From contig NZ_CP109013.1 of the NCBI RefSeq assembly GCF_036226745.1, forward strand, positions 496,001 to 560,000: 64,000 nt of DNA, written 5' to 3'. Every line of letters starts with the position of its first letter. Positions within the stretch are counted from its first letter, which is position 1. The notes beneath the pieces were generated by a model. That model searched no databases and was not told the origin of the DNA. It saw only the letters and a list, made by a program, of their open reading frames with translations. Positions 1,230 through 59,924 of the stretch are shown here, in pieces. The DNA is from Streptomyces sp. NBC_00683 (GTDB lineage: Bacteria; Actinomycetota; Actinomycetes; Streptomycetales; Streptomycetaceae). The translations under genes were made by a program, and so were the position numbers.

Positions 1230-1235
1230 GACTGG

Positions 1236-2285: not shown

Positions 2286-2292
2286 GAGTCAG

Positions 2293-2547
2293 TCACCTTC
2301 GATCGTTCTGCACGGAGCGGACCCGAGCGACGTGCAGCCGTTCGAGCAGCTCTTCCTCTTCCCGTTCGAACTCCTCCAGGCTGACGTTGCCGTCCTCGAG
2401 CTCCTGGTTCAGCGCGGCCAGTTGGGCACGGAGCACACCGGGGTCGTGCATTTCGCGGTCAGCTTGTTCGTTCACCTTCTCCGCCACCCAGATCACGCCG
2501 CGGACCGGTGCGAGAGGAAGCAGGAGGATCCCGCTGATCAGCCCCAT
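2293..2547 (-). CDS. gvpG: Gas vesicle protein GvpG
   Basis: The 84 aa protein fits the small GvpG family: a hydrophobic N-terminus (MGLISGILLLPLAPVRGVIW) followed by a charged coiled-coil helix ending LEEFEREEEELLERL. GvpG is a conserved accessory protein needed for vesicle formation and is thought to work with GvpF/GvpL during nucleation. It begins 2 bp after the gvpF stop and ends 7 bp before gvpY, so translation is probably coupled. Length and position match the Streptomyces clusters. Confidence 0.92.
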   Translation of the reverse strand: MGLISGILLLPLAPVRGVIWVAEKVNEQADREMHDPGVLRAQLAALNQELEDGNVSLEEFEREEEELLERLHVARVRSVQNDRR

Positions 2548-2548
2548 C

Positions 2549-3310: not shown

Positions 3311-3765
3311 GCCTCCGCGCGGCGTCGTCGGCTCGCACCTTCACGGGCGGGCGCCCGGCGCTTCCTGGGCCGCTCGTGCTGCTCTTCCTGGTCGTCCGAA
3401 TCGTCGTCGTCGTCACCGCCGCCCACCGCCTTGCGGACGCTGTCTCCGACGGACTCCGCGGCCTTGCGCACCTTGTGCTTGCCGACGGACTTGGCCGCGC
3501 CCATGCCGAACAGCTCCGGGACGGTCCTGCTGCCCGAGTCGCGCTCCAGGTCAAGGCGGTTGCAGGCCTCGGCGAATCGCAGGTACGTGTCCACGCTCGC
3601 GATCACGATGCGGGCGTCTATCTTGAGGATCTCGATGCCGACCAGCGAGACCCGGACGAACACATCGATGACCATCCCCCGGTCGAGGATGAGTTCCAGG
3701 ACGTCGTAGAGGGTTCCCGCACGCGGCGGGCACGGCGCTACTTCGTCGGCGTACATGGTGGTCAT
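3307..3765 (-). CDS. gvpA: Major gas vesicle shell protein GvpA
   Basis: The core at ~14-75 ([20 protein letters not shown], then [20 protein letters not shown]) is the coil-helix-strand-strand-helix fold of the gas-vesicle wall protein. Residues ~100-152 are a charged tail, Asp/Glu-rich then Arg/Lys-rich, longer than in cyanobacterial GvpA but usual for Streptomyces. I chose the ATG at 3765 because AAGGA sits 7 bases upstream; an upstream frame to 3795 has no ribosome site. It lies between gvpO and gvpF. Confidence 0.92.
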
Positions 3766-3798
3766 GGAGTTTCCTTCCGGCTGATGGGGCAACACGGG

Positions 3799-11454: not shown

Positions 11455-12237
11455 TCAGCCGCCCGCTGAGCGCGGGCTACCTCCTGGTTCGCTGCGGATC
11501 CTGTTCATCGAAGCCGGGGCCGAGCCGCTGAATCTTTCCAGCAACGCTTCCAGGCCTGACGCCAGCCCTTCCGGCCCGCCTCGGCCGGCCAGCGAAGGCG
11601 CTGTCGCCCTCAATCGCGGAAACTCCTGCACGGACATGCGGTGCAGTCCGAGCCGGAAGCCTGGGTCTGTCTCCTCGGGCGCATCGACCATTGCGCGCAG
11701 TTCCACGAGCAGATAGCCGAGCAGCCACGCGGTGAAGGCACGGTGCAGGGACACTGCTGTGGGCTCGGCAATGCGCGCGTCGTCGAGCAGGGCCAGGACT
11801 CGCTCGTCACTGCGGAGCACGGCCGCCGGGCGGCGGGCGAGCGGCGTGGACAGGAGGCGGGTCGCCAGGAGCGGCACGACGTTGGGGTGGCGCATGGCGA
11901 CTTCATAGGTGGCGTGTGCACGGCGATGCAGCTCCTCCTGCCACGCCGCGGCGTCCGCGGCGTTCCCTGCGTCCGCGGTCAGAGTGTCCTCCAGCTCCTG
12001 GTCGAAGGCTTCCACCAGACCGTCGAGCAAGGCGTCCTTGTTGGGCGCGTACCGGTACAGGGCCATCGCCTCGACCCCCAGCTCCGCACCGAGCTTGCGC
12101 ATGCTGAGGCCGGAGAGGCCGTCCCGGTCCACCACTTCCAAGGCGCTGGCAAGAACCCGTGCCCTGCTCAGGTGCCCGTACTTCCCACGGTCGGAGGCCC
12201 GCCGCCGGGGCTTCTCGCCCCCGGAATCGTTCGGCAT
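11455..12237 (-). CDS. TetR-family repressor, probably of the divergent exopolysaccharide operon
   Basis: The 260 aa protein has a TetR HTH at ~22-70 (RARVLASALEVVDRDGLSGL, recognition helix GVEAMALYRYAPNKDAL) and a C-terminal ligand domain of the Tet-repressor C type (~85-220). It is divergent from the glycosyltransferase operon across 159 bp that contain two inverted repeats and a promoter, the classic arrangement for a local repressor. The ligand is not predictable. The last ~40 residues are Gly/Ser/Pro-rich and probably disordered. Confidence 0.9.
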   Translation of the reverse strand: MPNDSGGEKPRRRASDRGKYGHLSRARVLASALEVVDRDGLSGLSMRKLGAELGVEAMALYRYAPNKDALLDGLVEAFDQELEDTLTADAGNAADAAAWQEELHRRAHATYEVAMRHPNVVPLLATRLLSTPLARRPAAVLRSDERVLALLDDARIAEPTAVSLHRAFTAWLLGYLLVELRAMVDAPEETDPGFRLGLHRMSVQEFPRLRATAPSLAGRGGPEGLASGLEALLERFSGSAPASMNRIRSEPGGSPRSAGG

Positions 12238-12302: not shown

Positions 12303-12331
12303 TTGACCACCCGGCACAATCGGTGCAATAT
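12303..12331 (+). promoter_or_regulatory. Predicted promoter of the exopolysaccharide operon
   Basis: TTGACC (12303-12308), a 17-bp spacer and CAATAT (12326-12331) give a good vegetative-type promoter. The start point would be near 12338, inside the palindrome at 12332-12343. No other good match lies in the gap. Confidence 0.6.
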
Positions 12332-12343
12332 CGTATATATACG
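12332..12343. promoter_or_regulatory. Palindromic operator candidate (CGTATATATACG)
   Basis: A perfect 12-bp palindrome sits directly after the predicted -10, in the midst of very GC-rich DNA. A TetR dimer bound here would block initiation of the glycosyltransferase operon and could also act on the divergent tetR promoter. Confidence 0.55.
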
Positions 12344-12351
12344 TCGTAAAC

Positions 12352-12368
12352 GTAAGCCGCCAGCTTAC
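12352..12368. promoter_or_regulatory. Inverted repeat GTAAGC-CGCCA-GCTTAC
   Basis: Perfect 6-bp arms with a 5-bp spacer lie in the predicted untranslated leader of the operon, 29 bp before the GTG start of the synthase gene. It may be a second operator or an RNA hairpin in the leader. Confidence 0.4.
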
Positions 12369-12396
12369 AGCCGATACCTACTCTGGGGCGTCAGCC

Positions 12397-14226
12397 GTGA
12401 CGCACATCGAGACGAAATCCGCAGACCGCACCCTGATCGAGCGGTATCTGGCGCGGATCTCGGGAGGCAATGTCGTCCGGGTCACGGCGGGCGGCCCCGT
12501 CTTCGGGCACGCATACCGGATCCGCAGGACCCACCCTTCCACCTTCGTACCCGCCCTCCCGCGCCCCGACCGGGCCGCCCTGCTCGCAGTGACTGCCGGT
12601 TGGTTCCTGTCCTTCATCTGGTTCTGGTCGTGGTGGCTTCAGCCGGTGCACCGCGCGGGCTGGGCCGGTCTGGTCGTCAACAGCGTCCTGCTGCTCTACC
12701 TGACAGGGCTGCCCAGCTACTTCTTCGTCACCGCGCTGCGGCTCCGGCGGGTCAACCCGGCCCTCGTGGTGCCCCGCGTCCCCGTGGCATTCGCGGTGAC
12801 ACGCGCCCCCTCCGAACCCTGGCCCACCGTGCGCCGGACTCTCGAGGCCATGTGCTCCCAGGACTTCCCGTACGACTACGACGTGTGGTTGTGCGACGAG
12901 GATCCGACCGAGGAGATCCGCCTCTGGTGCCGCCGGAACGACGTGGAGCTGTCATGCCGACGCGATGTGGATATCTACCACCGGTCGGACTGGCCCCGCC
13001 GGACGCGCTGCAAGGAGGGGAACTTCAGCTACTTCTACGACCACTGGGGCTACCGCCGCTACGCCGTCGTCGCCCAGCTCGACTGTGACCATGTGCCCTC
13101 CACCGGCTACCTCACCGAGATGGTCAGGCCGTTCGCCGATCCGGCCATCGGGTACGTCGCGGCACCCAGTATCTGCGATGCCAACGACTCCAGGTCGTGG
13201 TCGGCGAGGGGACGACTCCACCGTGAGGCCGTCTGGCACGGCGCCGTCCAGCTGGGTCACAGCGAAGGGCTCGCCCCGATGTGCATCGGCTCGCACTACG
13301 CCGTACGCACCCGGGCACTGCAGGACATCGGCGGCCTGGGGCCCGAGCTCGCCGAGGACTTTTCCACGACGTTCCTGCTCAACTCGGCCGGATGGCAAGG
13401 TGCCTTCGCCGTCGATGCCGAGGCGCACGGCGACGGTCCGCTCACTTTCGCCGACATGGTCACCCAGGAGTACCAGTGGTCCCGAAGCCTCACCAGCATG
13501 ATGCTCGACCTCCTCCCGCGGCACCTGGGACGGCTGCCGTTCCTCCTGCGGCTCCGCTTCGGCTACGCCCTTGCGTACTACCCGCTCATGGGCTCCATGA
13601 TCGTCGCCGGCCTCGTGCTCCCGCCCGTGGCGGTACTCAGCGGTCTGCCCTGGATGAACGTCAACTACCTCGATTTCCTCATCCATTTCTGGTCCCTGCC
13701 CGTGTGGCTGCTGCTGGCCCTGTGGCTGATACGCCGTCGTGGGCTGATGAGGCCGCGCCGCGCGCCGCTCCTCAGTTGGGAGACCTGGCTGTTCGCACTG
13801 GCACGGTGGCCGTTCGTCATCCTGGGCGTGCTGGGAGCGGTCATCCAGCGGCTGCGTCCCCGGCCGCTGACGTTCAAGGTCACCCCCAAGACCGACACGG
13901 GACCGCAGCCACTGCTCGCCCGGCTGACAATTCCGTTCGCCGCTCTGGCGTCGGCTCTCTCATCGATCGCTCTGATCGGCGAGCTCACCAGCCCCTCGGT
14001 CGGCTACGTCTTCCTGTGCATCCTCGCAGCGACCGCCTACGCCACCGTGGCGCTCGCCGTCCCACTGCTCCACGTCAGCGAAAACGCCCGGGCCGCGAAG
14101 GTCTCCTTCTCTTCGGCCCTGCGCACCGCATGGCTGTCCCTGACCGTCGGTGTCCTGTCGGCTCTGCCCGTCGCCACGGCCATCGTCTTCTATCCGTCGT
14201 ACGCCGCTGCCGTACTGGGCCGGTGA
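12397..14226 (+). CDS. Membrane family-2 glycosyltransferase (cellulose-synthase-like polysaccharide synthase)
   Basis: The 609 aa protein has two N-terminal membrane helices (~52-120), a GT-A domain and about six C-terminal helices (~390-600). Visible GT2 landmarks are the UDP-binding VWLCDED (~165), LDCDH (~229, metal-binding DxD), AEDF (~320, catalytic base) and QEYQW (~357-361), a variant of the Q-x-x-R-W motif of processive synthases with Gln for Arg. It therefore probably polymerises and exports a beta-glycan. There is no PilZ domain, so c-di-GMP would act indirectly. The GTG start has no clear ribosome site. It leads an operon supplying UDP-glucose-derived sugars. Confidence 0.88.
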   Translation: MTHIETKSADRTLIERYLARISGGNVVRVTAGGPVFGHAYRIRRTHPSTFVPALPRPDRAALLAVTAGWFLSFIWFWSWWLQPVHRAGWAGLVVNSVLLLYLTGLPSYFFVTALRLRRVNPALVVPRVPVAFAVTRAPSEPWPTVRRTLEAMCSQDFPYDYDVWLCDEDPTEEIRLWCRRNDVELSCRRDVDIYHRSDWPRRTRCKEGNFSYFYDHWGYRRYAVVAQLDCDHVPSTGYLTEMVRPFADPAIGYVAAPSICDANDSRSWSARGRLHREAVWHGAVQLGHSEGLAPMCIGSHYAVRTRALQDIGGLGPELAEDFSTTFLLNSAGWQGAFAVDAEAHGDGPLTFADMVTQEYQWSRSLTSMMLDLLPRHLGRLPFLLRLRFGYALAYYPLMGSMIVAGLVLPPVAVLSGLPWMNVNYLDFLIHFWSLPVWLLLALWLIRRRGLMRPRRAPLLSWETWLFALARWPFVILGVLGAVIQRLRPRPLTFKVTPKTDTGPQPLLARLTIPFAALASALSSIALIGELTSPSVGYVFLCILAATAYATVALAVPLLHVSENARAAKVSFSSALRTAWLSLTVGVLSALPVATAIVFYPSYAAAVLGR

Positions 14227-14276
14227 GTGCGGTGGAGAAGGCCGGAAAACCCATCTCATCGGAAGGAGTTGCCCTC

Positions 14277-15305
14277 ATGCGTGCACCGACGACCATTCTC
14301 GTCACCGGCGGCGCCGGCTTCATCGGCAGTCATACCTGTGTCGAGCTGCTCGACCACGGCTACAAGCTGATCGTGATCGACAACTACTCCAACAGCTCGT
14401 CCCAGGTGTTCAACCGCATCGAGAAGGTCACCGACCGTTTCGTCGGTGCGGTGTACGAGTTGGACATCCGTGATCGACACGCCCTGTCGGCCGTATTCGA
14501 CCGCCACCCAATTGACGCCGTCGTGCACTTTGCCGCGCACAAGGCTGTGGGCGAGTCGACCCGGATGCCCATCGAGTACTACGACACGAATGTCGCCGGC
14601 ACGACCGCACTGCTGCGGGCGATGCACGAACACGAGGTACACCAGCTGGTGTTCTCATCGTCCTGCTCGATCTACGGCGACGCCGGGCGCGGCCCACTGG
14701 ACGAATCCACTCCGGCCCGGCCGACGAACCCTTACGCGTCGTCCAAGTGGATCTGCGAACAGATTCTGGCCGATGTCTGCGCACGGATACCGGAGTTCAC
14801 CGTGCTCTGCCTGCGCTACTTCAACCCGGTCGGCGCCCATCCGAGCGGCCTGCTCGGCGAGGATCCGAGAGGAACTCCGGACAATCTGATGCCGACGGTG
14901 GCCCAGGTGGCCATCGGACGGCTGTCGCGCCTCCGGGTGTTCGGCGACGACTACAGCACGCCGGACGGAACGGCGATCCGCGACTACCTCCACGTCATGG
15001 ACACGGCCGAGGCACACCGCATCGCCCTGGACCGGCTGAGCGACACCTCCGGAATGCATGTGTTCAACCTCGGCGTCGGCAAGGGGCAATCGGTACTCGA
15101 GGTCGTCGCCGCCTTCGGTGCGGCCTCCGGAAGCCCCATCCCCTTCCGTGTCGTGCCCCGCCGGGCCGGTGACGTTCCCGAACTCGTCGCCGACGCGGGC
15201 GCTGTGAATCGCGCCTGGGGATGGCGGCCCCGCCGGAACCTGGCCGACATGTGCGGGGACTCCTGGCGTTTCCAACGGCGCAACCCCCTCGGCTACGCCC
15301 AGTAG
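14277..15305 (+). CDS. galE: UDP-glucose 4-epimerase
   Basis: The 342 aa extended SDR has the NAD-binding motif VTGGAGFIGSHT at ~8-19, the catalytic SSSCSIYGD region, and Y153-x3-K157 (YASSK) followed by RYFNPVGAHPSG typical of GalE. It interconverts UDP-glucose and UDP-galactose; a broader 4-epimerase role such as UDP-xylose/UDP-arabinose cannot be excluded in this operon. GGAAGGAG precedes the ATG. It lies 50 bp after the synthase and 31 bp before the dehydrogenase. Confidence 0.93.
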   Translation: MRAPTTILVTGGAGFIGSHTCVELLDHGYKLIVIDNYSNSSSQVFNRIEKVTDRFVGAVYELDIRDRHALSAVFDRHPIDAVVHFAAHKAVGESTRMPIEYYDTNVAGTTALLRAMHEHEVHQLVFSSSCSIYGDAGRGPLDESTPARPTNPYASSKWICEQILADVCARIPEFTVLCLRYFNPVGAHPSGLLGEDPRGTPDNLMPTVAQVAIGRLSRLRVFGDDYSTPDGTAIRDYLHVMDTAEAHRIALDRLSDTSGMHVFNLGVGKGQSVLEVVAAFGAASGSPIPFRVVPRRAGDVPELVADAGAVNRAWGWRPRRNLADMCGDSWRFQRRNPLGYAQ

Positions 15306-15336
15306 GGCGCACCGACGAGCAGTGAGGAGTGACATC

Positions 15337-16713
15337 ATGCGTATGACCGTCATCGGCACCGGATACGTGGGAACGGTGCACGCCGCGTGCATGGCCGACA
15401 TCGGCCACGAGGTCCTCGGCATCGATATCGACGCCGCCCGTATCGCCATGCTGGCGGCGGGCCGCGCACCGATACGCGAGACCGGCCTGGACACCTTGCT
15501 CGCCCGTGCCGTCGCCTCCGGTCGCCTGCACTTCACCACCTCGATGGACGAGGGAGCCGCCTTCGCCCGTACTCACTTCCTGTGTGTCGGGACCCCTCAG
15601 CGCCACGACAGCGAGGCCGCAGACCTGCGCTACGTCGACGCGGTGGTGGACTCCCTGGCACCACGGCTGCAGCCCGGCAGTCTCCTCGTGGGCAAGTCCA
15701 CCGTGCCGGTCGGCACGGCGGCGCGCATCGGCGCCGGACTCACCGAGACCGCCCCGGACAGTGACGTGGCGTGGAACCCCGAGTTCCTGCGGGAAGGTTC
15801 TGCCGTCGCCGACACCATGCGACCGGACAGACTCGTCGTGGGTGTCGGCTCGGCGGAGGCAGAGGAAACCCTGCGTACCGTCTACGCCCCCATGATCCGG
15901 GCCGGGGTGCCGTTCTTCAGCACCGACCTGGCCACCGCGGAGCTGGTCAAGGTCGCGTCGAACTCCTTCCTGGCGACCAAGATCTCCTTCATCAACGCCA
16001 TGTCCGAGGTCTGCGCCGCCGTGAACGCCGACGCCACGGTCCTCGCCCGGGCCATGGGCGCGGACTCCCGTATCGGTGAGCGATTCCTCGAGCCTGGACT
16101 GGGGTTCGGCGGAAGCTGCTTCCCGAAGGACATCCGGGCGTTCGCGGCCCGCGCCGAGGAGCTCGGAGCCGGCCCGGCGGTCGGGTTCCTGCACGAGGTC
16201 GACCGCATCAACACACGGCAGCGCCTTCGTACGGTCGCCTTCGCACGGCACCTCCTGGGCGATTCGCTGACGGACCGCCGTGTGGCGGTCTTCGGCGCGG
16301 CCTTCAAGCCGGGCAGCGACGATGTACGGGACTCACCCGCACTCGCCGTCGCGACAGCCCTCGACCAGCAGGGTGCCGACGTTCGCATCCACGATCCGCA
16401 GGCCCTGGACAACGCCCGCGCCGCGTTTCCCGACCTGGCCTACGTCCCGACCGTCCCCGACGCATGCGAGAACGCCGAGCTTGTGCTGCATCTGACGGCC
16501 TGGCCCGAATACCGTCAGATCGACCCCGCCGCTCTGGCCCTCGTCGTACGCGAACCGTTGCTGCTGGATGCGCGCAACAGCCTCGACGAGGCGGTCTGGC
16601 AGCGGGCCGGCTGGGCCATCCACGGCCTGGGCCGCCCACAGACCCACAGGCACGGATCGACCACTGCGGACTCCAGCGATCGTCCGGTGCTGGTGGCAGG
16701 AGGTGCGTCATGA
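15337..16713 (+). CDS. ugd: UDP-glucose 6-dehydrogenase
   Basis: The 458 aa protein has GTGYVG near the N-terminus (NAD Rossmann motif), the VGKSTVPVGTA segment, WNPEFLREG, the K-x-x-x-N helix LVKVASNSFLATK and the catalytic Cys261 in GFGGSCFPKD. It oxidises UDP-glucose to UDP-glucuronate with two NAD+. The ATG at 15337 follows GAGGAG; a GTG at 15322 is less likely. Its TGA overlaps the next ATG, so the product is handed to the decarboxylase encoded next. Confidence 0.94.
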   Translation: MRMTVIGTGYVGTVHAACMADIGHEVLGIDIDAARIAMLAAGRAPIRETGLDTLLARAVASGRLHFTTSMDEGAAFARTHFLCVGTPQRHDSEAADLRYVDAVVDSLAPRLQPGSLLVGKSTVPVGTAARIGAGLTETAPDSDVAWNPEFLREGSAVADTMRPDRLVVGVGSAEAEETLRTVYAPMIRAGVPFFSTDLATAELVKVASNSFLATKISFINAMSEVCAAVNADATVLARAMGADSRIGERFLEPGLGFGGSCFPKDIRAFAARAEELGAGPAVGFLHEVDRINTRQRLRTVAFARHLLGDSLTDRRVAVFGAAFKPGSDDVRDSPALAVATALDQQGADVRIHDPQALDNARAAFPDLAYVPTVPDACENAELVLHLTAWPEYRQIDPAALALVVREPLLLDARNSLDEAVWQRAGWAIHGLGRPQTHRHGSTTADSSDRPVLVAGGAS

Positions 16714-17693
16714 GAATCGTCGTGACCGGCGGTGGCGGATTCGTGGGTTCCCACCTGTGCGAGGCCCTTCTCCGCAGGGGCGACACGGTCTGGTGCCTGG
16801 ACAATTTCTCCACCGGGGAGCCGGAGAACCTGGCCGGGCTGCGTGACGCCCCCGGCTTCCACAGCAGGCATACGGACGTGACGGCGCCCTTCGACGTTCC
16901 CGGTCCTGTGCACGCCGTGGCCCACCTGGCGAGCCCGGCATCACCGGCGGACTACGGCCGCCTCCCGGTCGAGACACTGACCGTGGGCAGCCGGGGCACG
17001 GAGAACTGTCTGCGCCTGGCCCTGCGCCACCATGCCCGCTTCCTCCTCACGTCCACCAGCGAGGTCTACGGGGACCCGGAGATCCATCCGCAACCCGAGG
17101 AGTACTGGGGCCGGGTCAATCCGATCGGACCCCGTAGCGTGTACGACGAGGCGAAGCGCTACGCGGAGGCACTGGCCATGGCCTACCGGCGCAGCCTCGG
17201 CGCCGACGTGGGCATCGTTCGGATCTTCAATACGTACGGGCCCCGGATGCGGCCGTACGATGGCCGTGTGGTGTCCACCTTCATCCGCCAGGCCCTGGAG
17301 GGCCGCCCCCTGACCGTCTACGGGGACGGCGGCCAGACCCGCAGCTTCTGCTACGTCGACGACCTCGTTAGCGGGCTCATCGCCATGATCGACAGCTCGT
17401 ACAGCGGTCCGGTCAATCTGGGCAACCCCTGCGAGAACACCGTGCGCGAACTTGCCGAGCACGTGCTGTCCGCCACGGGTTCATCCTCCCGCATCGAGCA
17501 CCGACCGCTGCCCGTCGACGATCCGACCCGGCGGCGCCCCGTCATCGCCCGGGCCCGGGCCCAACTCGGCTGGGCCCCCCGCGTCCCCCTCGACGAGGGG
17601 CTGCGACGCACGGTCGGCTGGTTCGCCTCCCGGTCACCATCCGCCGAGGGGGCGCTGCACCACCACACCGTGCACCACCCCGTCGGGGCCTGA
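16710..17693 (+). CDS. UDP-glucuronate decarboxylase (UDP-xylose synthase type)
   Basis: The 327 aa extended SDR has VTGGGGFVGSHL at ~5-16, the TSTSEVYGDPEIHPQ motif and Y145-x3-K149 in GPRSVYDEAKRYAE, then RIFNTYGPRM, all features of the UXS branch rather than of dTDP-glucose dehydratases. It converts UDP-glucuronate to UDP-xylose with NAD+ recycled. The ATGA overlap with ugd ties the two steps together. The product is the probable donor for a xylose-containing polymer. The His-rich C-terminal tail is not a family feature. Confidence 0.9.
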   Translation: MRIVVTGGGGFVGSHLCEALLRRGDTVWCLDNFSTGEPENLAGLRDAPGFHSRHTDVTAPFDVPGPVHAVAHLASPASPADYGRLPVETLTVGSRGTENCLRLALRHHARFLLTSTSEVYGDPEIHPQPEEYWGRVNPIGPRSVYDEAKRYAEALAMAYRRSLGADVGIVRIFNTYGPRMRPYDGRVVSTFIRQALEGRPLTVYGDGGQTRSFCYVDDLVSGLIAMIDSSYSGPVNLGNPCENTVRELAEHVLSATGSSSRIEHRPLPVDDPTRRRPVIARARAQLGWAPRVPLDEGLRRTVGWFASRSPSAEGALHHHTVHHPVGA

Positions 17694-17698
17694 CTCCG

Positions 17699-19372
17699 AT
17701 GCGCCGGCCCGTCGCCACTCCCGCCCTGAGACGTCATGCGCCGAACGTCCTGCTCGTCCTGGTGTTGTCCCTCGGGGCGGGCAGCTGCGCCGAAACGCCC
17801 CACTACTCACCGCCACGGGCACACACCTACTACGTGAGCCCGGCGGGCGACGATCAGCACGACGGGACGTCGGCGGACCGGGCCTGGCGGACACTCACCA
17901 GGGCGGAGCGTGTCCCGCTCGAGCCCGGAGACCGGCTGCTTCTGCAGGGTGGAGCACGCTACCCCGGCACCGTCACGATCAAGGACAACGAGGCGGGTAG
18001 CGCGAACTCACCTGTCCGGATCGGCTCGTACGGGGAAGGGCGGGCCACCATCGAAGCCACCGACGGTCCCGGCATCTCCGTGCACAACACGGCAGGTGTG
18101 GAGATCACTGACCTCACCGTGACCGGTCGGGGCAGCGCCCTGAAGGACGAAGGCGGAATCAACCTCTACAACGATCGTCCGAGCGGCGGAAAGCTGGGCC
18201 CCGTCAAACTCTCCGGTGTCGACGTCTCCGGCTTCAGGGCGGGCATCGCGATCGGCGGCAAGGACCACAGAACGGGGTTCAGGGACGTGTCCGTCAGCCA
18301 GGCCAGGCTCCACGCCAACAAGGATGCCGGACTCCTCGTGTACGGCCCCGACTTCGACCCGGCGCACCCCGGCTACGCGCACCGGAACATCGACCTCCAA
18401 GGAGTCGACGCCTTCCGCAACGACGGCGACCCGACGGCCGACCACCGCCACACGGGTAGCGGCATCATCCTCGGGTCCGTTCGTGACGCCACCGTGCGTG
18501 CGTCCAGCGCCCACGACAACGGAGCACGCTCCTCGACCGAGGCACCTGCCGGGCCGGTGGGGATCTGGGCCTACGACTCAACAGCCGTGCGGATCGAGCG
18601 CAACGTGGCCTACCAGAACCACACCGGCTCCTCCGTCGACGGGGCAGGTTTCGGATTCGACTCCAATGTCTCCTCCTCGACGATCCAGTACAACCTGGCA
18701 TACCGCAATGACGGCCCCGGCTACTACGCCTATGCAAAAACAGCCAACGGAGCGCATCGCGACAATACGATCCGCTTCAACATCAGTGTGTCCGATGGAC
18801 GGAAACTGCCTCACAACGGCGGACTCTCCGTGCACGGCAAGGACATCCGGAATCTGCAGATCTATCAGAACACCGTCGTGATGCCCGATTCCCCCCGGGG
18901 CGCCGCGCCTGCCCTGCGCTTGCGACGGGGCGAGCAGGGCGTCGCCCTGCGCAACAACATCCTGGTCAACGAGAGCGGCCCGGTGGTCACGGCGGAGCCC
19001 GGGCTCGAGCCGGCCGACGTCGCACTCCAGGGCAACAACTACCGGACGACGGACGGTGCGTGGACGGTCGACTGGGGAGGCCGTTCCTATCCGGCACTGA
19101 ACGCGTGGCGGGAGGCAACCGGACAGGAACGGGCAGGGCAGCGCGCGACCGGGTTCGAGGCCGACCCGTGCTTCGCGGGCGGCGAACTGCCGGCTGTCCG
19201 CTCGGCAGGCGACGCACCCCTGGTCGTCCCGGACTGCCCGGGCCGCAAGGGCCTTGATCTGCGGGCCCTGTTCGGGATCGATCCCGGAACGGTCGACTAC
19301 TTCGGCACCGAAGTACCAGTACCGCCGCCGGTCGGGGCAGCTGTGCCACAGGCCTCCGATTCAGGTACGTGA
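17699..19372 (+). CDS. Secreted lipoprotein with right-handed parallel beta-helix
   Basis: The 557 aa product has a basic N-terminus, a hydrophobic stretch (VLLVLVLSLG) and a loose lipobox AGSC at about residue 30, so it is probably lipid-anchored outside the membrane. The body, from YYVSPAGDDQHDGTSADRAW onward, has repeated short strands with NN/N-N turns (ISVHNTAGVEITDLTVTG, RIERNVAYQNH, TIQYNLAYRND) typical of pectate-lyase-like parallel beta-helices (PbH1 repeats). Related proteins are polysaccharide lyases, epimerases or binding proteins. Inside this operon it likely modifies or trims the secreted glycan; the chemistry cannot be assigned. Confidence 0.8.
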   Translation: MRRPVATPALRRHAPNVLLVLVLSLGAGSCAETPHYSPPRAHTYYVSPAGDDQHDGTSADRAWRTLTRAERVPLEPGDRLLLQGGARYPGTVTIKDNEAGSANSPVRIGSYGEGRATIEATDGPGISVHNTAGVEITDLTVTGRGSALKDEGGINLYNDRPSGGKLGPVKLSGVDVSGFRAGIAIGGKDHRTGFRDVSVSQARLHANKDAGLLVYGPDFDPAHPGYAHRNIDLQGVDAFRNDGDPTADHRHTGSGIILGSVRDATVRASSAHDNGARSSTEAPAGPVGIWAYDSTAVRIERNVAYQNHTGSSVDGAGFGFDSNVSSSTIQYNLAYRNDGPGYYAYAKTANGAHRDNTIRFNISVSDGRKLPHNGGLSVHGKDIRNLQIYQNTVVMPDSPRGAAPALRLRRGEQGVALRNNILVNESGPVVTAEPGLEPADVALQGNNYRTTDGAWTVDWGGRSYPALNAWREATGQERAGQRATGFEADPCFAGGELPAVRSAGDAPLVVPDCPGRKGLDLRALFGIDPGTVDYFGTEVPVPPPVGAAVPQASDSGT

Positions 19373-22300
19373 GCGAGAAGATGCAGCCGGGCGCGGGCCG
19401 TGCCTACGATCGAATCGGGTTCCCGCGCCCGAGCCCACGGGGGATGCGGCTCGGCACCGGCAACGCAGGGAGGCGCTTGCCATTGCTTCGGGCACACCGG
19501 CCCATGGCCGTCCACTCCGCTTTCGTCTTGTGCCTCGCCGTGCTGTACCTCGCGTTCCCCGGCGCTCGTACCCCCCTGTGGGCCCTGATCGGACTGAGTG
19601 GGTTCGCGGCTGTGTTCGTGGGTTTGCACCTGCACCGGCCAGCACACCGCTGGCCGTGGTGGTTCCTTGCAGCGGGTCTGCTCTCCTTCGCGGCCGGCGA
19701 CACCATCTACAACGTGCTCGAGGAGTACCTGCACGTCACAGACTTGTTCCCCTCAGCGGCGGATGCCGCTTACCTCGCGACCTATCCGTTTCTGGCCGTT
19801 GGGCTCCTGGGGCTCCTCAGATACCGCTGGCTGAACAAGGACTTGCCCGCCCTGCTGGACGCACTGATCTTCACCGGGGCGCTGGCCCTGCTGGTCTGGG
19901 TGGGGCTCATGCAGCCCCTCACTCACGTCGAAGGTCTGACCTGGCAGCAGCGCGCCATCAGCATGGCCTACCCGCTGGGCGACGTACTCGTGCTGGCACT
20001 GCTCCTCAGGCTGCTCACGTCCAGCCGACCTGCGGGCGGGAACCGTTCGGTGCATTTCCTCGTCATCGGCACGGTCGCCGTGCTCGGATTCGACATCCTG
20101 TACGGCATCCTCCAGCTCAACAGCACCTGGCAGGTCGGCACCTTGCTGGACATGGGCTGGGTCTTCTTCTACGCGGCATGGGGGCTGGCCGCTCTGCATC
20201 CCTCGATGGTGGAGATCACGGCCCGGTCGCCACAGCGCGAAGCCGTTCTGCCGCCCCGGGGGCGGCTGGTGCTGCTGGCCATAGCAACCCTGGTGGCACC
20301 GGCGATCCTGCTCGTGGAGGCACTGCGGGGCAACGCCGATGACGCGACCGTCATCGCGGGATTCACCGGCGTTCTGTACCTGCTGGTCCTCTTCCGGCTC
20401 TCGAGCATGGTCGTCGCCCACCGCAAGGCGCTGACCCGAGAACGTGCCCTGCTCGATGTGTCCTCGTCACTGGTGGCAGGGGACCGGCCGCGGCAGATCG
20501 CGTTGTCCTGCGAATCCGCGGTCGACACGCTCTTCGGCCCCTCGGTCCCGCACAGCAGCATGTTGCTGTCACCGCAGCATTCGGCGGATCTGTACGCTGA
20601 GTTGCTCCTCTCCGACACCATCGACGTACCGGAGGATCCACTCGCCGCGACGGTGGGCGACGACCCGTCGGACAGCCCCGGCCTGTCGGCTCTCAGTAGC
20701 CCACGGCAGGTCAGCACCGCCCAGCTCGACCCGCACATCGCGGCTGCCCTCGGCAACCTGCCCACCGCCCTGGTGTGTCCGTTGGTCCACCCCGACCATC
20801 CCTCCTCCGGGCCGCGGACCGGCGTTCTCCTGGCCGCCGGCCCGGAAAAGCAACTCACCGAGATTCGCGGATCCCTCGAGATCCTGGCCTCGCAAGCCGG
20901 GCTCGCCATGGAGCGAATCACTCTCCGGGAAGAGATCATCCGCCGCAAGAGTGAGGCATATTTCCGAACACTCGTGCGAAACGGATCGGACGTGATCCTG
21001 ATCATCGACGACGACGACACGGTGCGGTACGCGAGCCCCTCGGCGGATGCCGTGTTCGGGCGGGCCACGTTGAACGGCGTACCACTTCCGTCGCTGGTCG
21101 AGGCACGCGACCGCGACCGTGCGGCCCAGGCCCTGGCGAGAACACGCGAGGGCAGCATCCGGAGCGCCAGGGATCATTGGTTGATCACCTACGAGGGGAG
21201 ACAGGTCGAGGTGGAGGCGCAGTGCAGCAATCTGCGCCAGGACCCGACCGTCCGCGGACTCGTCGTCACCCTTCGCAACGTGACGGAGCAGCGTGCGTTG
21301 GAGCACGAGCTCACCCAACGCGCCTTCCACGATCCGCTCACGGGGCTACCCAACCGGGCCCTGCTGCTCGAGCGGATCGAACGGGCCTTGTTGCGCAGCC
21401 GGCGAGATTCGACACTCGTCTGTGTGCTCTTCATCGACCTCGACGACTTCAAGCTGGTCAACGACTCGATGGGCCACTCCGTCGGCGACGAGCTGCTCGT
21501 CTCCGTGGGCAACAGGCTCTCCGCCACGCTGCGCCGCAGCGACACCGCGGCCCGGCTGGGCGGTGACGAGTTCGCGGTACTGATGGAGGACGCGACGCGT
21601 CCCCTGGATGCCGAACTCCTGGCGGCCCAGGTCGTACAGGCGCTCAGCCGACCGTTCCGCCTGGCGCGCGGGATGGTGAGCGCGTCCGTCAGTGTGGGCG
21701 TCGCCACGAGCATGGACAGCGTGGATACCGAGGAGCTGCTCAGCAGCGCCGACCTGGCCCTCTACGCGGCCAAGGCCGAGGGAAAACGTCGGTGGCACAG
21801 GTTCCAGCCACGGCTTCACTTGCGCATGATGGAGCGTCATGAACTGCAGTCGACCATGGACTCCGCGATAGCCGAGAACCAGTTCACACTGCGCTACCAG
21901 CCCGTCGTCGATTTCGCCGACGCCGAGGCCGTCGTCGGCTTCGAGGCTCTGGTCCGCTGGTCGCATCTGCGTCACGGACTGCTCCCGCCCCAGCAGTTCA
22001 TCAACATCGCCGAGGAGAGCGGGCAGATCAATTCGCTCGGTGCCTGGGTCCTGAGCAAGGCCGCCCGGGACATCGCCGGTCTGCAGAGCCTGTCCGAGCC
22101 CTCGGTGCCCCTCTTCGCCAGTGTGAACGTCTCGGCAGTGCAGTTCCGGGATCGGACCTTTCCGGACAGGGTCAGGGAGGCTGTGGAAACCTCCGGGCTC
22201 GCCCCCGGTTCCTTGCAGCTGGAGCTGACAGAAACCGCTCTCGTGACAGAGGAGGACCAGACCCGAAGGATCATGCAGCGGCTGAGAGGCATGGGAATCC

Positions 22301-22620
22301 GCATCGCCATCGACGACTTCGGCACCGGCTTCGCCTCGTTGCGCTACCTCCGGGAGTTCCCGATCGATGTCATCAAGATCGACAAGTCGTTCATCGACAA
22401 CATCACAGAGGACAGCAAGAAGCTCGGACTCGTCGAGGGCATCGTGCGCATAGCCGACACACTCGGACTGCAGGTCATCGCCGAGGGCATCGAAAGCGCG
22501 GCCCAACGCGATCTGCTGGCGTCCATGGGATGCCCCTGCGGGCAGGGATATCTCTTCGCACGTCCGATGACGGTCGAGCAGGGCGAACTTCTGCTGGGCC
22601 GGAGCGGCGCATCGCCATGA
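19369..22620 (+). CDS. Membrane PAS-GGDEF-EAL protein for c-di-GMP turnover
   Basis: The 1083 aa protein has about ten membrane helices in ~45-355, a GAF-like region (~360-520), a PAS domain (~525-640), a GGDEF domain and an EAL domain. RLGGDEF (~729-735) is intact, and RRSD five residues upstream fits the inhibitory I-site. The EAL domain retains FEALVRW (~857), NVSAVQF, LELTET, DDFGTGF, KIDKSF, EGIES and QGYLF, so both diguanylate cyclase and phosphodiesterase activity are plausible. The GTGA overlap with the beta-helix gene and ATGA with the next gene place it in the operon, where it likely links c-di-GMP to polymer production. Confidence 0.93.
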   Translation: MSEKMQPGAGRAYDRIGFPRPSPRGMRLGTGNAGRRLPLLRAHRPMAVHSAFVLCLAVLYLAFPGARTPLWALIGLSGFAAVFVGLHLHRPAHRWPWWFLAAGLLSFAAGDTIYNVLEEYLHVTDLFPSAADAAYLATYPFLAVGLLGLLRYRWLNKDLPALLDALIFTGALALLVWVGLMQPLTHVEGLTWQQRAISMAYPLGDVLVLALLLRLLTSSRPAGGNRSVHFLVIGTVAVLGFDILYGILQLNSTWQVGTLLDMGWVFFYAAWGLAALHPSMVEITARSPQREAVLPPRGRLVLLAIATLVAPAILLVEALRGNADDATVIAGFTGVLYLLVLFRLSSMVVAHRKALTRERALLDVSSSLVAGDRPRQIALSCESAVDTLFGPSVPHSSMLLSPQHSADLYAELLLSDTIDVPEDPLAATVGDDPSDSPGLSALSSPRQVSTAQLDPHIAAALGNLPTALVCPLVHPDHPSSGPRTGVLLAAGPEKQLTEIRGSLEILASQAGLAMERITLREEIIRRKSEAYFRTLVRNGSDVILIIDDDDTVRYASPSADAVFGRATLNGVPLPSLVEARDRDRAAQALARTREGSIRSARDHWLITYEGRQVEVEAQCSNLRQDPTVRGLVVTLRNVTEQRALEHELTQRAFHDPLTGLPNRALLLERIERALLRSRRDSTLVCVLFIDLDDFKLVNDSMGHSVGDELLVSVGNRLSATLRRSDTAARLGGDEFAVLMEDATRPLDAELLAAQVVQALSRPFRLARGMVSASVSVGVATSMDSVDTEELLSSADLALYAAKAEGKRRWHRFQPRLHLRMMERHELQSTMDSAIAENQFTLRYQPVVDFADAEAVVGFEALVRWSHLRHGLLPPQQFINIAEESGQINSLGAWVLSKAARDIAGLQSLSEPSVPLFASVNVSAVQFRDRTFPDRVREAVETSGLAPGSLQLELTETALVTEEDQTRRIMQRLRGMGIRIAIDDFGTGFASLRYLREFPIDVIKIDKSFIDNITEDSKKLGLVEGIVRIADTLGLQVIAEGIESAAQRDLLASMGCPCGQGYLFARPMTVEQGELLLGRSGASP

Positions 22621-22646
22621 GGACCCGGCCAGGGAAGGACTCAGCC

Positions 22647-23897
22647 ATGCATGACATAGCTGCGGCGCCCGCGGACTCGCAGAACGAGGCACGCTGGGGC
22701 GAGCTGGACAGGCTCCGGCGGACAAGTCCGATGTGCGACGCCGTGCTCGACGAGGTACGAGGCCGGCACATCCGCAGCGGTGACCACTGGCTCGTGGACT
22801 TCGCCTCGTGCAACTACCTCGGCTTCGACTGCGACCCCGAAATCATCGCGGCGATCGAGCCGGCCGTCCGCCGCTGGGGAACACACCCCAGTTGGTCGAG
22901 GCTGATCGGCAGCCCGCGACTGTACATCGACATCGAGGAGCGACTGGCCGGACTCCTCGGAGTCGAGGACACCCTCCTGTTGCCGACCGCAACCCTGATC
23001 CACGCCTCCGTCATCCCGATTCTCGCCGGTCAGGGGCACGTCTTCGTCGAGGCTTCCGCGCACCGGACCGTGTACGACGGGTGTCAGTCGGCCAGGGGAA
23101 GGGGGGCGACGCTGCACCGCTTCCGAGCCGACCGGCCCGCCGAGCTGGACGCGCTGCTCGCCGGAATCCCGCCCGGGTCGCCCGTCCTGGTCTGTCTGGA
23201 CGGGGTGAACAGTATGAGCGGCAACATCCCCGACCTGCCGACCCTGGCTGCGATCTGCCGGGGCAGGAACGCGACGCTGTACGTAGACGACACGCATGGG
23301 TTCGGCGTGGTCGGGGAACGCGGCGCCGCCGACGCCTGCCCGTACGGGTCCCGTGGCAACAGCGTCGTCCGGCACACGGGCGAGAGCTACGACGGCATCG
23401 TGCTCGTCGGCGGATTCTCCAAGGCATATTCGTCGCTGCTCGCCTTTCTGGCCCTGCCCACCCGTCTGAAGAACCGCCTGAAGGTGGACGCCGCGCCGTA
23501 TCTGTACTCCGGCCCCTCACCGACCGCGTCCCTCGCCACGGCGCTCGCCGGTCTGGAGGTCAACGAGCGTCGTGGGGATGCCATTCGCGCCGACCTGTAC
23601 CGCAAGACCGTCCGGGTACTCGACCACATCCGCGAACTCGATCTGCCGACGCTCAACACCGACCGGCTGCCGATCGTGGAGATCCCGCTCGGGAACGCGG
23701 AAGACATCGACGCGGTCGCCCTGTATCTGTGGGAAAAGGGAATCTACGTGACCCTGGCCGCCTATCCACTGGTCCCCCACGACCGTGTGGGATTCCGTGC
23801 ACAGATCACGGCGCTGAATTCGGACGAGGACATCGACCGGCTCAACAACGCGTTGACCGGACTGTCCCACTGCTTCGCCCTCGGCTCCGGGAGGTGA
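22647..23897 (+). CDS. PLP-dependent alpha-oxoamine synthase (BioF/Kbl-like)
   Basis: The 416 aa fold-type I PLP enzyme has FASCNYLGFDCDPE near 50, HPSWSRLIGSP, YVDDTHGFGVVGERG (Asp/His stacking on PLP) and Lys259 in GGFSKAYSS as the Schiff-base lysine. Family members condense an acyl-CoA or acyl-ACP with an amino acid (BioF, Kbl, SPT, HemA, CqsA). No biotin or threonine-degradation gene is near, so the product may be an amino-ketone lipid or signal. ATG 22647 follows GGAAGGA; an ATGA-coupled ATG at 22617 is an alternative start. Confidence 0.83.
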   Translation: MHDIAAAPADSQNEARWGELDRLRRTSPMCDAVLDEVRGRHIRSGDHWLVDFASCNYLGFDCDPEIIAAIEPAVRRWGTHPSWSRLIGSPRLYIDIEERLAGLLGVEDTLLLPTATLIHASVIPILAGQGHVFVEASAHRTVYDGCQSARGRGATLHRFRADRPAELDALLAGIPPGSPVLVCLDGVNSMSGNIPDLPTLAAICRGRNATLYVDDTHGFGVVGERGAADACPYGSRGNSVVRHTGESYDGIVLVGGFSKAYSSLLAFLALPTRLKNRLKVDAAPYLYSGPSPTASLATALAGLEVNERRGDAIRADLYRKTVRVLDHIRELDLPTLNTDRLPIVEIPLGNAEDIDAVALYLWEKGIYVTLAAYPLVPHDRVGFRAQITALNSDEDIDRLNNALTGLSHCFALGSGR

Positions 23898-23904
23898 GCC
23901 GCAC

Positions 23905-24687
23905 GTGTCCGCAAATCCGGCCGGGGAGAACCCGGTACTCAACGACCACGTCGACTGGGACAGCTGGCCCGTCGAGGACTACCTCACGGAGAACTACCGT
24001 GACCTGCATCCCTCCGACGCGGCGGTCATCGCTCACCACTCCGCCTTCTACCGCCGCCTCGCGCCCGGCAGCATCGCCCGTTCACTGGAATTCGGCGCCG
24101 GCCCCAACCTGTATCCCCTCATGCTCGCCGCCGCAGCGAGTCGGCACACCGACGCCGTGGAGGCGAGTGCGCCGTGTGTCGCCTATCTGAACCGGCAGGT
24201 GGCCAGGGGGCCGGACGAGACCTGGTCGCCTTTCCACGAGCTGTGCAGACGGCTGAATCCGGCCCTGCCCGCGTCGCCGGCGGGGGCGCTGCGAGGGGTC
24301 CGTGTCGTCCGCGGCGACATCCGGACGGTGGCCCCCGGCACCTACGGCCTCGCGTCCATGCACTTCGTGGCCGAGGGCGCAACCGAGGACTACGATGAGT
24401 TCGCCGAATTCTGCCGGCTCTTCGCCCACTCCGTGGCACCCGGCGGGCACCTGATCGCCGCCTTCATGGAAAACATGCCCACGTACCGCATCGGTCCGGC
24501 GTCGCAGTGGCCCGGCTGTCCGGTGGACCGGGATCTCGTCTCGGAAGTGTTCGCACCATTCAGTGGACGTCTGGAGGTGACCCGCATCGATGCCGACCCC
24601 ACCCTGCCGGACTACGGAGATTCCGGCATGGTGCTGCTCACCGCGACACGGTGCGAGGACCATGCCTTACCGTCCCGGCCCCTGTGA
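23905..24687 (+). CDS. SAM methyltransferase of the NNMT/PNMT/TEMT type
   Basis: The 260 aa protein begins with a motif shared with amine N-methyltransferases (VEDYLTENYRDLHPSD, ~22-37), has a SAM-binding region SLEFGAGPNLYPLML at ~54-68, and an acidic helix VEASAPCVAYL. Enzymes of this type methylate small amines or pyridines. It starts 7 bp after the oxoamine synthase stop, with GGGAGGT before the GTG, so a methylated amine product from the preceding enzyme is a reasonable inference. Its 3' end overlaps the converging GH15 gene by 76 bp. Confidence 0.8.
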   Translation: MSANPAGENPVLNDHVDWDSWPVEDYLTENYRDLHPSDAAVIAHHSAFYRRLAPGSIARSLEFGAGPNLYPLMLAAAASRHTDAVEASAPCVAYLNRQVARGPDETWSPFHELCRRLNPALPASPAGALRGVRVVRGDIRTVAPGTYGLASMHFVAEGATEDYDEFAEFCRLFAHSVAPGGHLIAAFMENMPTYRIGPASQWPGCPVDRDLVSEVFAPFSGRLEVTRIDADPTLPDYGDSGMVLLTATRCEDHALPSRPL

Positions 24688-26477
24688 TCGCGGGACAGGC
24701 GTTGCAGGGAGAACGCGGTCTCCACCAGGGAGATGTGACTGAAGGCCTGCGGGGTGTTGCCCAATTGCCGGTGCCCTGACGGATCCCACTGCTCGGACAT
24801 GAGCCCTACATCGTTTCGGACACCCAGCACGCGTTCGAAGACCACCTGGGCCGCGTCCAGGTCTCCGGTGGCCGCCAGTGCGTCGGCGTACCAGAGCGAG
24901 CACGCCACGAACGGGCACTCGGAACCCGGCATGCCGTCCACACGGTCCACCCCGGGGCCTGTGAGCATGTACCGGCGCAGGAAGCCGCCCTCGTCGAGTG
25001 CCCGCATGGCCCGGACCGTCCCCTGTACCCTCTCGTCGCCGGCAGGCAGGAATCCCAGTCGGGGAATCAGCAGTGCCGAGGCGTCCAGATCGGTCCCGCC
25101 GTAGGCCTGCACGAACGACTCGCGCCCACCGTCCCAGCCTTCTCGGCACACCTCCTGGTGCACCGTGTCCCTCATGGCGCGCCACTCCTTCGAACTGCCG
25201 TTCCTTCCGATCATCTCTCCTATGCGCAGCGCCCGGTCCGCCGCCACCCACGACATGATCTTGGAGTGGACGAAATGCCTTCGCGGCCCCCGGACTTCCC
25301 AGAGTCCTTGGTCGGGATACCGCCAGTGGACCTGGAGATATCCCATCAGGCCCTTCACCAGACTCCACATGCGCGGCGTCATCGCGATCCCCGCCCGGAG
25401 GGACCAGTACAAGGTGTCCAGAACTTCGCCGTACACATCCAGCTGGAACTGCTGCACCGCGGCGTTGCCGAACCGTACCGGCCTGGATCCCTCGTAGCCG
25501 GGCAGCCAGGGGGCCTCGGTCTCCGGCAGCAGCCGTTCGCCACCCAGGCCGTACACACTCTGCAGACCGGACATGCCCCCCGCGGTGGCGCGCAGCAGCC
25601 AGGCAAGCCAGGCAGTCGCCTCTTCCCGGTAGCCGCTTCGAAGCAGGCAGGACAGCGTAAGTGTGGAATCGCGCAGCCAGCAGTACCGGTAGTCCCAGTT
25701 GCGTTCTCCGCCCAGTTGTTCGGGGAGCGACGTGGTGGGTGCTGCGACAACACTGCCCGTCGGCGCGTAGATCAGCGCTTTCAGCGTGATCAAGGACCGC
25801 ACAACGGCTTCGCGCCATGGTCCCCGGTATCGACAACGGGAGGCCCAGCGCTGCCAGAAGCCGATGGTCTCCTTGAGCATCGTCTCCGTGGGCAGCAGCA
25901 GCTCCGCAGGCGCGTCCAACAGGTGTGACGGCGACCAGACCAGTTGGAGTGTCAGCCCTCGCCCCGCCGAAACCGTGAAATCGCCGACGGTGGAGTCCGG
26001 CCCACCGGACACCTGTACGGGGCCGTCCGTGCCCAGCCAGGTGGAGTCGGGCCCTGCGGTCGCCACCGTGAAGCGCTCGCTGGCATGCATCCATGGAATT
26101 ATTCGGCCCTGGTGAAAGCGTGGTGTCAGTTCGCTCCGCATGGGAACGGAACCGGACAGCGCCTCGACCATCCGCACGAGGCAGGGAAACCCCGTACGAG
26201 GGGGCATGAAGTCCGTCACGCGCACCGATCCCGACGCGGTGTCCCAGAAGGTGTCCAGAACGAGGGTGTCAGGGCGGTAGGCGCGATGCGTGCACGTGCC
26301 GGCTCCGACGGGCGCAACCCGCCAAAACCCGTTGCTGCCCGTACCGAGCAGGGCAGCGAAACAAGCGGGTGAGTCGAAACGCGGCAGGCACAGCCAGTCG
26401 ATGGACCCGTCGCGGCCAACCATCGCCGCAGTCTCCAGGTCCCCGATCAGGGCGTAGTCCTCGATGTTCTCATTCAT
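24612..26477 (-). CDS. Glycoside hydrolase family 15 protein (trehalase/glucoamylase-like)
   Basis: The 621 aa protein has an N-terminal beta-sandwich (~1-210; EDYALIGDLETAAMVGRDGS) and an (alpha/alpha)6 barrel with RNWDYRYCWLRDS near 260, a WEVRGPRRHFVHSK segment and MSEQWDP near 560, where the Glu corresponds to the general base. Actinobacterial proteins of this layout include acid trehalases and glucodextranase-like enzymes, with alpha-glucosidic substrates. No signal peptide is visible, so it is cytoplasmic. It runs against the exopolysaccharide operon and overlaps its last gene by 76 bp. Confidence 0.9.
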   Translation of the reverse strand: MNENIEDYALIGDLETAAMVGRDGSIDWLCLPRFDSPACFAALLGTGSNGFWRVAPVGAGTCTHRAYRPDTLVLDTFWDTASGSVRVTDFMPPRTGFPCLVRMVEALSGSVPMRSELTPRFHQGRIIPWMHASERFTVATAGPDSTWLGTDGPVQVSGGPDSTVGDFTVSAGRGLTLQLVWSPSHLLDAPAELLLPTETMLKETIGFWQRWASRCRYRGPWREAVVRSLITLKALIYAPTGSVVAAPTTSLPEQLGGERNWDYRYCWLRDSTLTLSCLLRSGYREEATAWLAWLLRATAGGMSGLQSVYGLGGERLLPETEAPWLPGYEGSRPVRFGNAAVQQFQLDVYGEVLDTLYWSLRAGIAMTPRMWSLVKGLMGYLQVHWRYPDQGLWEVRGPRRHFVHSKIMSWVAADRALRIGEMIGRNGSSKEWRAMRDTVHQEVCREGWDGGRESFVQAYGGTDLDASALLIPRLGFLPAGDERVQGTVRAMRALDEGGFLRRYMLTGPGVDRVDGMPGSECPFVACSLWYADALAATGDLDAAQVVFERVLGVRNDVGLMSEQWDPSGHRQLGNTPQAFSHISLVETAFSLQRLSRDHRGRDGKAWSSHRVAVSSTMPESP

Positions 26478-59919: not shown

Positions 59920-59924
59920 CCAGC

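Follow-up and report, generated by a model that had tools for sequence, protein, structure and literature searches.

The stretch of Streptomyces sp. NBC_00683 DNA analysed here (the window: 64,000 nucleotides, bases 496001-560000 of the 8.52-Mb chromosome NZ_CP109013.1) carries eight consecutive genes on the + strand, 12397-24687, in which a membrane polysaccharide synthase of glycosyltransferase family 2 (GT2) and its sugar-nucleotide enzymes are followed by a cyclic di-GMP (c-di-GMP) GGDEF-EAL protein, an alpha-oxoamine synthase (AOS) and a methyltransferase (MT). We asked what such an operon makes and whether its parts belong together. The eight-gene operon is a composite of two modules, module 1 (GT2, GalE-like epimerase, UGD, UXS and beta-helix lipoprotein) and module 2 (GGDEF-EAL, AOS and MT), and the comparisons presented below suggest that one control governs the production of a surface polymer, a second messenger and a small molecule. 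The genes are as follows.

12397..14226, + strand: GT2 processive polysaccharide synthase, 609 aa; about eight transmembrane helices by crude hydropathy; no PilZ match
14277..15305, + strand: UDP-sugar 4-epimerase, GalE-like (UDP-Glc/Gal or UDP-Xyl/Ara); TIGR01179, 404 bits
15337..16713, + strand: UDP-glucose 6-dehydrogenase (UGD); Pfam UDPG_MGDP_dh domains, TIGR03026
16710..17693, + strand: UDP-glucuronate decarboxylase / UDP-xylose synthase (UXS), SDR enzyme; similarity to Uxs1
17699..19372, + strand: right-handed beta-helix lipoprotein, GH136-like modelled fold, probable glycan-processing enzyme
19369..22620, + strand: membrane sensor-PAS-GGDEF-EAL protein; about seven transmembrane helices by crude hydropathy; both catalytic motifs and the I-site intact
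22617..23897, + strand: AOS, pyridoxal phosphate (PLP) class I/II, 426 aa; ATGA overlap with the preceding GGDEF-EAL gene
23905..24687, + strand: S-adenosylmethionine-dependent MT; SCO2525-family model 119 bits, below its cut-off of 240

The junctions from GT2 to MT measure, in order, +50, +31, -4, +5, -4, -4 and +7 bp. A preliminary description of this DNA had listed the same eight genes in tight same-strand order, and their coordinates and families were borne out; the tightness of the junctions also stood, while the count of four at 4-7 bp or overlapping has to be raised to five at 7 bp or less or overlapping. Its proposal of a membrane polysaccharide synthase with a UDP-xylose supply agreed with the families matched by GT2, UGD and UXS. 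The MT also gave weak matches to NNMT/PNMT/TEMT, under the cut-off.

Module 1 and the arabinose-polysaccharide operon

A pattern-based scan using one genome per species yielded 74 synthase loci. Among 295 Streptomyces genomes the synthase was present in 32 (E < 1e-100), in one case with a stop and in another split in two pieces. The order GT2-GalE-UGD-UXS-beta-helix recurs in TetR-type loci and in Catenulispora, the genera that show it being Streptomyces, Catenulispora and Actinacidiphila. In a second group the loci start with UXS and the strand of the beta-helix gene varies; most of the non-actinobacterial loci, largely from Rhodobacteraceae, show the order UXS-epimerase-GT2. The comparison then set 40 actinobacterial stretches (L005-L042, L044 and the first 40 kb of the window) against 34 others (L043 and L046-L078; 33 proteobacterial and one from Gracilibacteria). 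All comparison stretches were fetched by the synthase, whose presence is hence given, and the Uxe and Uxs1 queries cross-match each other's genes; read in this way, the actinobacterial stretches contained GalE in 37, UGD in 39, UXS in 36 and the beta-helix protein in 38 cases. The beta-helix protein had no match in any of the 34 other stretches, all of which gave a match to the GH26 protein ApsE.

The plasmid search revealed Sinorhizobium and Rhizobium GT2 genes as the best matches (about 48% identity over about 84%), and two annotated plasmid loci showed the order UXS-epimerase-GT2-DUF995-GH26-DUF995. The arabinose polysaccharide (APS) of S. meliloti contains arabinose, and uxs1 and uxe belong to its system, according to the part of PMC7902896 consulted; further background on APS was taken from parts of PMC8546604 and PMC10519070. 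The likeness to APS consists of homologous genes standing side by side, namely GT2 (45-48% identity to the ApsS-type GT2 of Sinorhizobium), UXS (54% to the Uxs1 homologue in the APS-type operon of S. medicae; the next best match within the window's own genome is 38%) and the 4-epimerase (43% to the S. medicae Uxe homologue), and of a link to c-di-GMP, for APS as described in the consulted parts of these sources. By homology, module 1 is an actinobacterial counterpart of the Sinorhizobium APS operon uxs1-uxe-apsS. The two differ in that UGD, the c-di-GMP enzyme, the oxoamine synthase and the methyltransferase lie inside the Streptomyces operon, which has the beta-helix protein where APS has GH26 ApsE. 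At E 1e-6 no match to ApsE, ApsH1 or ApsH2 was found in the 40 actinobacterial stretches, and an AraC gene that adjoins the S. medicae operon, CuxR-like by position, likewise had no match in them; TetR and its site are found instead.

CslA/GlxA and MatAB include GT2 membrane synthases of Streptomyces surface glycans. Both types are encoded elsewhere in the same genome, a CslA-like GT2 (28% identity to the window GT2 over the matched part) next to a GlxA domain and a MatB-like GT2 (31% over the matched part) with a deacetylase domain, in agreement with the earlier proposal that the glycan of the window is distinct from theirs. Unlike the c-di-GMP-activated cellulose synthase BcsA, the window synthase has no PilZ domain among its Pfam matches, and the CelA model reached 62 bits against a cut-off of 699. 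The absence of PilZ had been noted in the preliminary description, and c-di-GMP need not act through PilZ.

The beta-helix protein occupies the place of ApsE, and its model showed a GH136-like fold over the catalytic module; it is a probable glycan-processing enzyme. The LnbX lacto-N-biosidases belong to family GH136, with D411 and D418 as the catalytic aspartates. These align with A316 and N323 of the beta-helix protein, in which D314 and D321, invariant in 34 rows, are located two residues earlier.

Module 2: a GGDEF-EAL protein coupled to an oxoamine synthase

AOS was detected in 51 of the 295 Streptomyces genomes (E < 1e-75). The AOS loci fetched comprised 40 outside the synthase operon, two from a class-wide search, the window and 10 synthase-linked loci, and 52 loci from Streptomyces and Actinacidiphila were counted; L165 is cut by a contig end, while L014 (broken frames) and the partial AOS matches G009 and G223 were left out. 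GGDEF-EAL is situated immediately upstream of AOS in all 52 loci. Together with the recurrence of the module 1 order in other actinobacteria, this places the arrangement beyond chance. The two coding regions form one frame without a stop in 42 of the 52 loci, and are separate genes in the other 10, the window among them. No description of a GGDEF-EAL::AOS fusion was found in the literature searched.

Alignment of 69 GGDEF-EAL and 72 AOS rows, family f18 (see below) included, revealed that the five GGDEF residues are kept in 65-67 of the 69 rows, the R and D of the I-site in 66 and 67, respectively, and the EAL glutamate in 66. The AOS active site retains the PLP lysine in 70 of 72 rows and one histidine and two aspartates in all 72. 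The product of 19369-22620 is predicted by its motifs to be a bifunctional GGDEF-EAL enzyme, and the earlier placing of a c-di-GMP enzyme in this operon was supported. Its sensor region has one weak paralogue in its own genome (32% over part). The window AOS shares the PLP fold and active-site motifs of BioF, KBL, SPT, ALAS and CqsA, but it lies below all their NCBIfam cut-offs (167 bits against 426, 127 against 460, 143 against 500, 106 against 339 and 60 against 428, respectively) and, in contrast to them, is coupled to GGDEF-EAL.

The surroundings of module 2 vary. A second glycan context is seen in L171-L185 (LacI-type, some TetR-type), where module 2 often faces conserved GT4, GT4, PIG-L, PMT-like and GH42-like genes. 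In L146-L168 (deaminase-type) its frequent neighbours are a deaminase, a TAP-like hydrolase and a chaplin gene; the deaminase-type AOS copies form one clade of 15 rows. A gene for a transporter of the major facilitator superfamily (MFS) separates AOS from MT in two Streptomyces loci (L169, L170) and follows AOS in L213 (family f28), where the GGDEF-EAL protein of 1556 aa has about 460 extra N-terminal residues and its gene overlaps AOS by 4 bp.

Linkage of the two modules

Of 16 named TetR-type loci, two (L011, L026) are cut by contig ends and 14 reach past the beta-helix gene. GGDEF-EAL and AOS follow this gene in 11 of the 14 (L005, L007-L010, L012, L014, L023, L032, L036 and L040), another GGDEF-EAL module is carried by L006 (=L254) and L013 (=L284), and L020 has neither in its stretch. 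At the level of genomes, AOS was present in 19 of the 32 synthase-bearing Streptomyces against 32 of the 263 others (Fisher p 9e-9, from a hand count not corrected for kinship). The AOS tree (71 rows, midpoint root) showed the synthase-linked copies as a grade within a 37-row clade that includes Actinacidiphila, with the epimerase-linked and deaminase-type copies nested inside, which suggests an old linkage between synthase and AOS, followed by loss or rearrangement.

The preliminary description had joined the last four genes to the synthase. Genome comparison upheld this for the beta-helix gene and, in the TetR-type loci, for GGDEF-EAL and AOS, but not in the UXS-first stretches or in most module-2 loci. 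The enrichment of AOS in synthase genomes and the operator connecting both modules speak further for the linkage.

The TetR gene and its operator-like site

Upstream of the operon, three features absent from the list above were identified.

11455..12237, - strand: TetR-family regulator; Pfam TetR_N and TetR_C_1; divergent from the operon
12303..12331, + strand: promoter, TTGACC at 12303, 17 bp, CAATAT; TTGAC and the -10 conserved in aligned TetR-GT2 intergenic regions
12332..12356, + strand: operator-like inverted repeat, consensus GTACATATACGNCGTAAACATACG, presumed TetR site; conserved in TetR-GT2 intergenic regions as GTACATATACGNCGTAAACATACG or close forms

The TetR gene and its conserved operator had not been mentioned in the preliminary description, whose start coordinate, 12303, coincides with the promoter TTGAC. 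TetR homologues 52-77% identical occupy the same place in TetR-type loci and lie beside module 2 in some others. The locus stretches were scanned for the operator with 18 of 24 letters matching, without a shuffle control, and operator-like sites were found before GT2 in TetR-type loci and before the epimerase gene in eight module-2 loci. In six of the latter (L148, L154, L156, L159, L163, L167) same-strand GGDEF-EAL-AOS is next, and the site-preceded GalE and the GGDEF-EAL gene of L149 and L151 are separated by a GH15 gene on the opposite strand. Another five loci (L173, L174, L180, L182, L184) have the site directly before GGDEF-EAL::AOS, with a divergent TetR gene. Sites were also observed before UGD-UXS in two loci and before a GH15 homologue in L148, L152 and L163.

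A stricter pattern, allowing at most one mismatch, gave a single site in the 8.52-Mb genome and none with the reversed-pattern control. Seven other site-bearing genomes had one to three sites each, and the match was exact in seven of the eight; as these eight genomes were picked because an earlier alignment or scan had shown the site, the genome-wide scan gives the rarity of the site and not its frequency. Among 52 genomes that lack the synthase orthologue and AOS, irrespective of TetR, no exact and two one-mismatch sites were found, with no cluster gene nearby. The reversed pattern was found in none of the 60 genomes.

A candidate BldD box was rejected. The sequence ACTCTGGGG, just upstream of the GT2 start, resembles a BldD half site, but it falls on the ribosome-binding region and shows no conservation as a site.

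A parallel module and the small molecule

The other GGDEF-EAL module, GGEAL2-ATR-AAT, consists of a different GGDEF-EAL protein, an A-PCP-reductase and an aminoacyl-tRNA transferase homologue. It directly follows the glycan genes in L254 and is near them in L284 (behind an opposite-strand MFS gene), L280, L282 and L266. Nine of the 295 Streptomyces have a transferase homologue of at least 79% identity, and in all of them, as well as in S. ipomoeae, it is preceded by GGDEF-EAL and the A-PCP-reductase; the GGDEF-EAL proteins are 81-83% identical to that of L254 and 46-48% to that of the window. Of the ten transferase stretches, five carry module 1 sugar genes, another one has only a TetR gene, and five have an opposite-strand MFS gene. 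The two inspected of four more distant transferase homologues (46-55%; L287, L288) had no GGDEF-EAL called in the stretch. Both GGDEF-EAL modules occur in one genome, that of Streptomyces albidochromogenes (G113), where GGEAL2-ATR-AAT follows the glycan genes in L254 (same contig as L006) and L255, on another contig, carries a fused GGDEF-EAL::AOS-MT-GH15.

A further association was seen in family f18 (28 genomes with an AOS match, 17 fetched; L215 and L217 are short stretches), in which AOS is near an aminoacyl-tRNA-transferase-cluster gene in 17 of 17 (one member Pfam-tested) and near GGDEF-EAL in 14 of 17. As their strands often differ, the arrangement amounts to synteny rather than an operon. 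In most of the stretches L218-L230 from this family, the neighbourhood of AOS includes genes for an aminoacyl-tRNA transferase, a methyltransferase, a UvrD-like helicase and a GGDEF-EAL protein.

Oxoamine synthases yield alpha-aminoketones, as is established for the family, and valdiazen and DPO are pyrazine-type bacterial signals. Monomodular A-PCP-reductases give aminoaldehydes, which lead to pyrazines or pyrazinones, according to the consulted part of PMC8658869. The domain order of the A-PCP-reductase enzymes of these pathways is matched by the GGEAL2-ATR-AAT enzyme, while the window has an oxoamine synthase instead, and the two enzymes may share their chemistry. The shared theme of GGDEF-EAL with a maker of alpha-amino carbonyls is the basis of the small-molecule reading. 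Taken further, it would describe a signalling system, not found in the literature searched, in which a membrane GGDEF-EAL protein is coupled to makers of alpha-amino carbonyls (AOS, mostly fused, or A-PCP-reductase), with additions that vary by lineage (an aminoacyl-tRNA transferase, a methyltransferase, an MFS transporter); a pyrazine- or pyrazinone-type signal linked to c-di-GMP would here switch on a pentose-rich polymer via TetR as a possible receptor. We offer this extended version tentatively and consider it rather unlikely.

Neighbouring genes

Downstream of the operon a further gene, also absent from the preliminary description, was identified.

24612..26477, - strand: GH15 glycosidase; convergent neighbour, 76 bp overlap with MT

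A GH15 gene is found after MT in six of seven extended GT2-linked stretches (L257-L262, not L256). A defence role was looked for with PADLOC, which gave no match among the five proteins tested. Elsewhere in the window, gas vesicle genes (GvpG, GvpL/F, GvpA-type; 138-3795) adjoin strongly repetitive coding sequence with tandem repeats, which may account for the unusual AT skew seen over the first 2 kb. At 59916-62312 the window encodes a molybdenum hydroxylase large subunit with domains binding the molybdenum cofactor.

Proposed mechanism and alternative explanations

The explanation that we favour, and hold to be rather probable, is that a single TetR regulon produces both a surface glycan and a small molecule derived from an alpha-aminocarbonyl compound, and adjusts c-di-GMP. 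TetR would sit on the conserved inverted repeat at the promoter until released by a ligand. UGD and UXS would supply UDP-glucuronate and UDP-xylose, and the GalE-like enzyme the 4-epimer, by analogy with Uxe probably UDP-L-arabinose. The GT2 synthase would polymerise and extrude a pentose-containing glycan like the APS of S. meliloti, and the beta-helix lipoprotein, in the place of the proteobacterial ApsE, might trim or cut it outside the membrane. The GGDEF-EAL protein, with its intact motifs, would set the level of c-di-GMP, and the AOS tied to it, fused in most loci, would form an alpha-aminoketone to be modified by MT. c-di-GMP would thus need no contact with the synthase, the two being coupled by joint expression under TetR and perhaps by a gating of the tethered AOS.

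Several observations weigh against this explanation. The epimerase tree (47 rows, L107 missing) was neutral, Uxe not being set apart from ExoB-like enzymes, and did not settle between UDP-Ara and UDP-Gal. Copies of module 2 mostly occur away from the synthase operon, and in the UXS-first synthase loci the stretch contains none. The deaminase- and LacI-type module-2 loci had no operator in the stretch scanned, hence no sign of TetR control there, and the sites at L252 and L253 show that one-mismatch matches also arise by chance. The PLP lysine is missing in 2 of the 72 AOS rows and a catalytic residue in a few GGDEF-EAL rows.

The preliminary description had read the operon as making a xylose/glucuronate/galactose polymer by a synthase under c-di-GMP control, with AOS and MT as accessory genes. 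UGD, UXS, an epimerase scoring above the GalE cut-off and an intact GGDEF-EAL protein in the operon are consistent with this, but the closest operon with a described product leads to an arabinose-containing polymer, as far as the consulted part of the APS source goes, no PilZ was matched, and GGDEF-EAL is tied far more closely to AOS than to the glycan synthase. With the epimerase tree neutral, the composition is not supported as originally given, a pentose polymer appears likelier, and we regard that reading as a whole as doubtful. A use of c-di-GMP as input, its binding to the GGDEF-EAL part gating the fused AOS, would fit the in-frame fusions and the well-kept I-site; the catalytic GGDEF and EAL residues, needless in a pure receptor, are kept as well, however, and ten loci including the window have two separate genes, so that this remains a possibility of some weight, if on balance an unlikely one.

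AOS and MT might instead make a lipid or amino-ketone unit which anchors or decorates the polymer, in the manner of SPT and sphingoid bases, and not a free molecule. Serine palmitoyltransferases match the AOS (P0006) about as closely as BioF and KBL do, the enzyme is tethered to a membrane protein, and some module-2 loci are beside GT4, PIG-L and PMT-like glycan genes; on the other hand module 2 is also beside a deaminase and a chaplin gene with no glycan genes called in the stretch, and the MFS gene next to AOS in L169, L170 and L213 argues against it. We think it plausible but unlikely. That module 2 is a passenger which merely landed downstream of the glycan genes would account for its scattered occurrence among many other neighbours and for the many module-2 loci without operator, and the genome-level association of synthase and AOS is uncorrected for kinship. 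The same operator-like site, however, precedes either module in different genomes, and the partly different GGEAL2-ATR-AAT module has come to lie after or near glycan genes in five loci, which makes a passenger improbable.

Implications

With these results, polysaccharide machinery of the rhizobial APS type is found in Streptomyces too, its GT2 surface-glycan synthase being separate from CslA and MatB. A c-di-GMP enzyme is physically joined to a metabolic enzyme in most of the loci, which could tie the level of the second messenger to a specific small-molecule output. The operator, of which this genome has a single copy, offers a direct handle for identifying polymer and metabolite: loss of one TetR gene should turn on the glycan, the c-di-GMP enzyme and the small molecule together.

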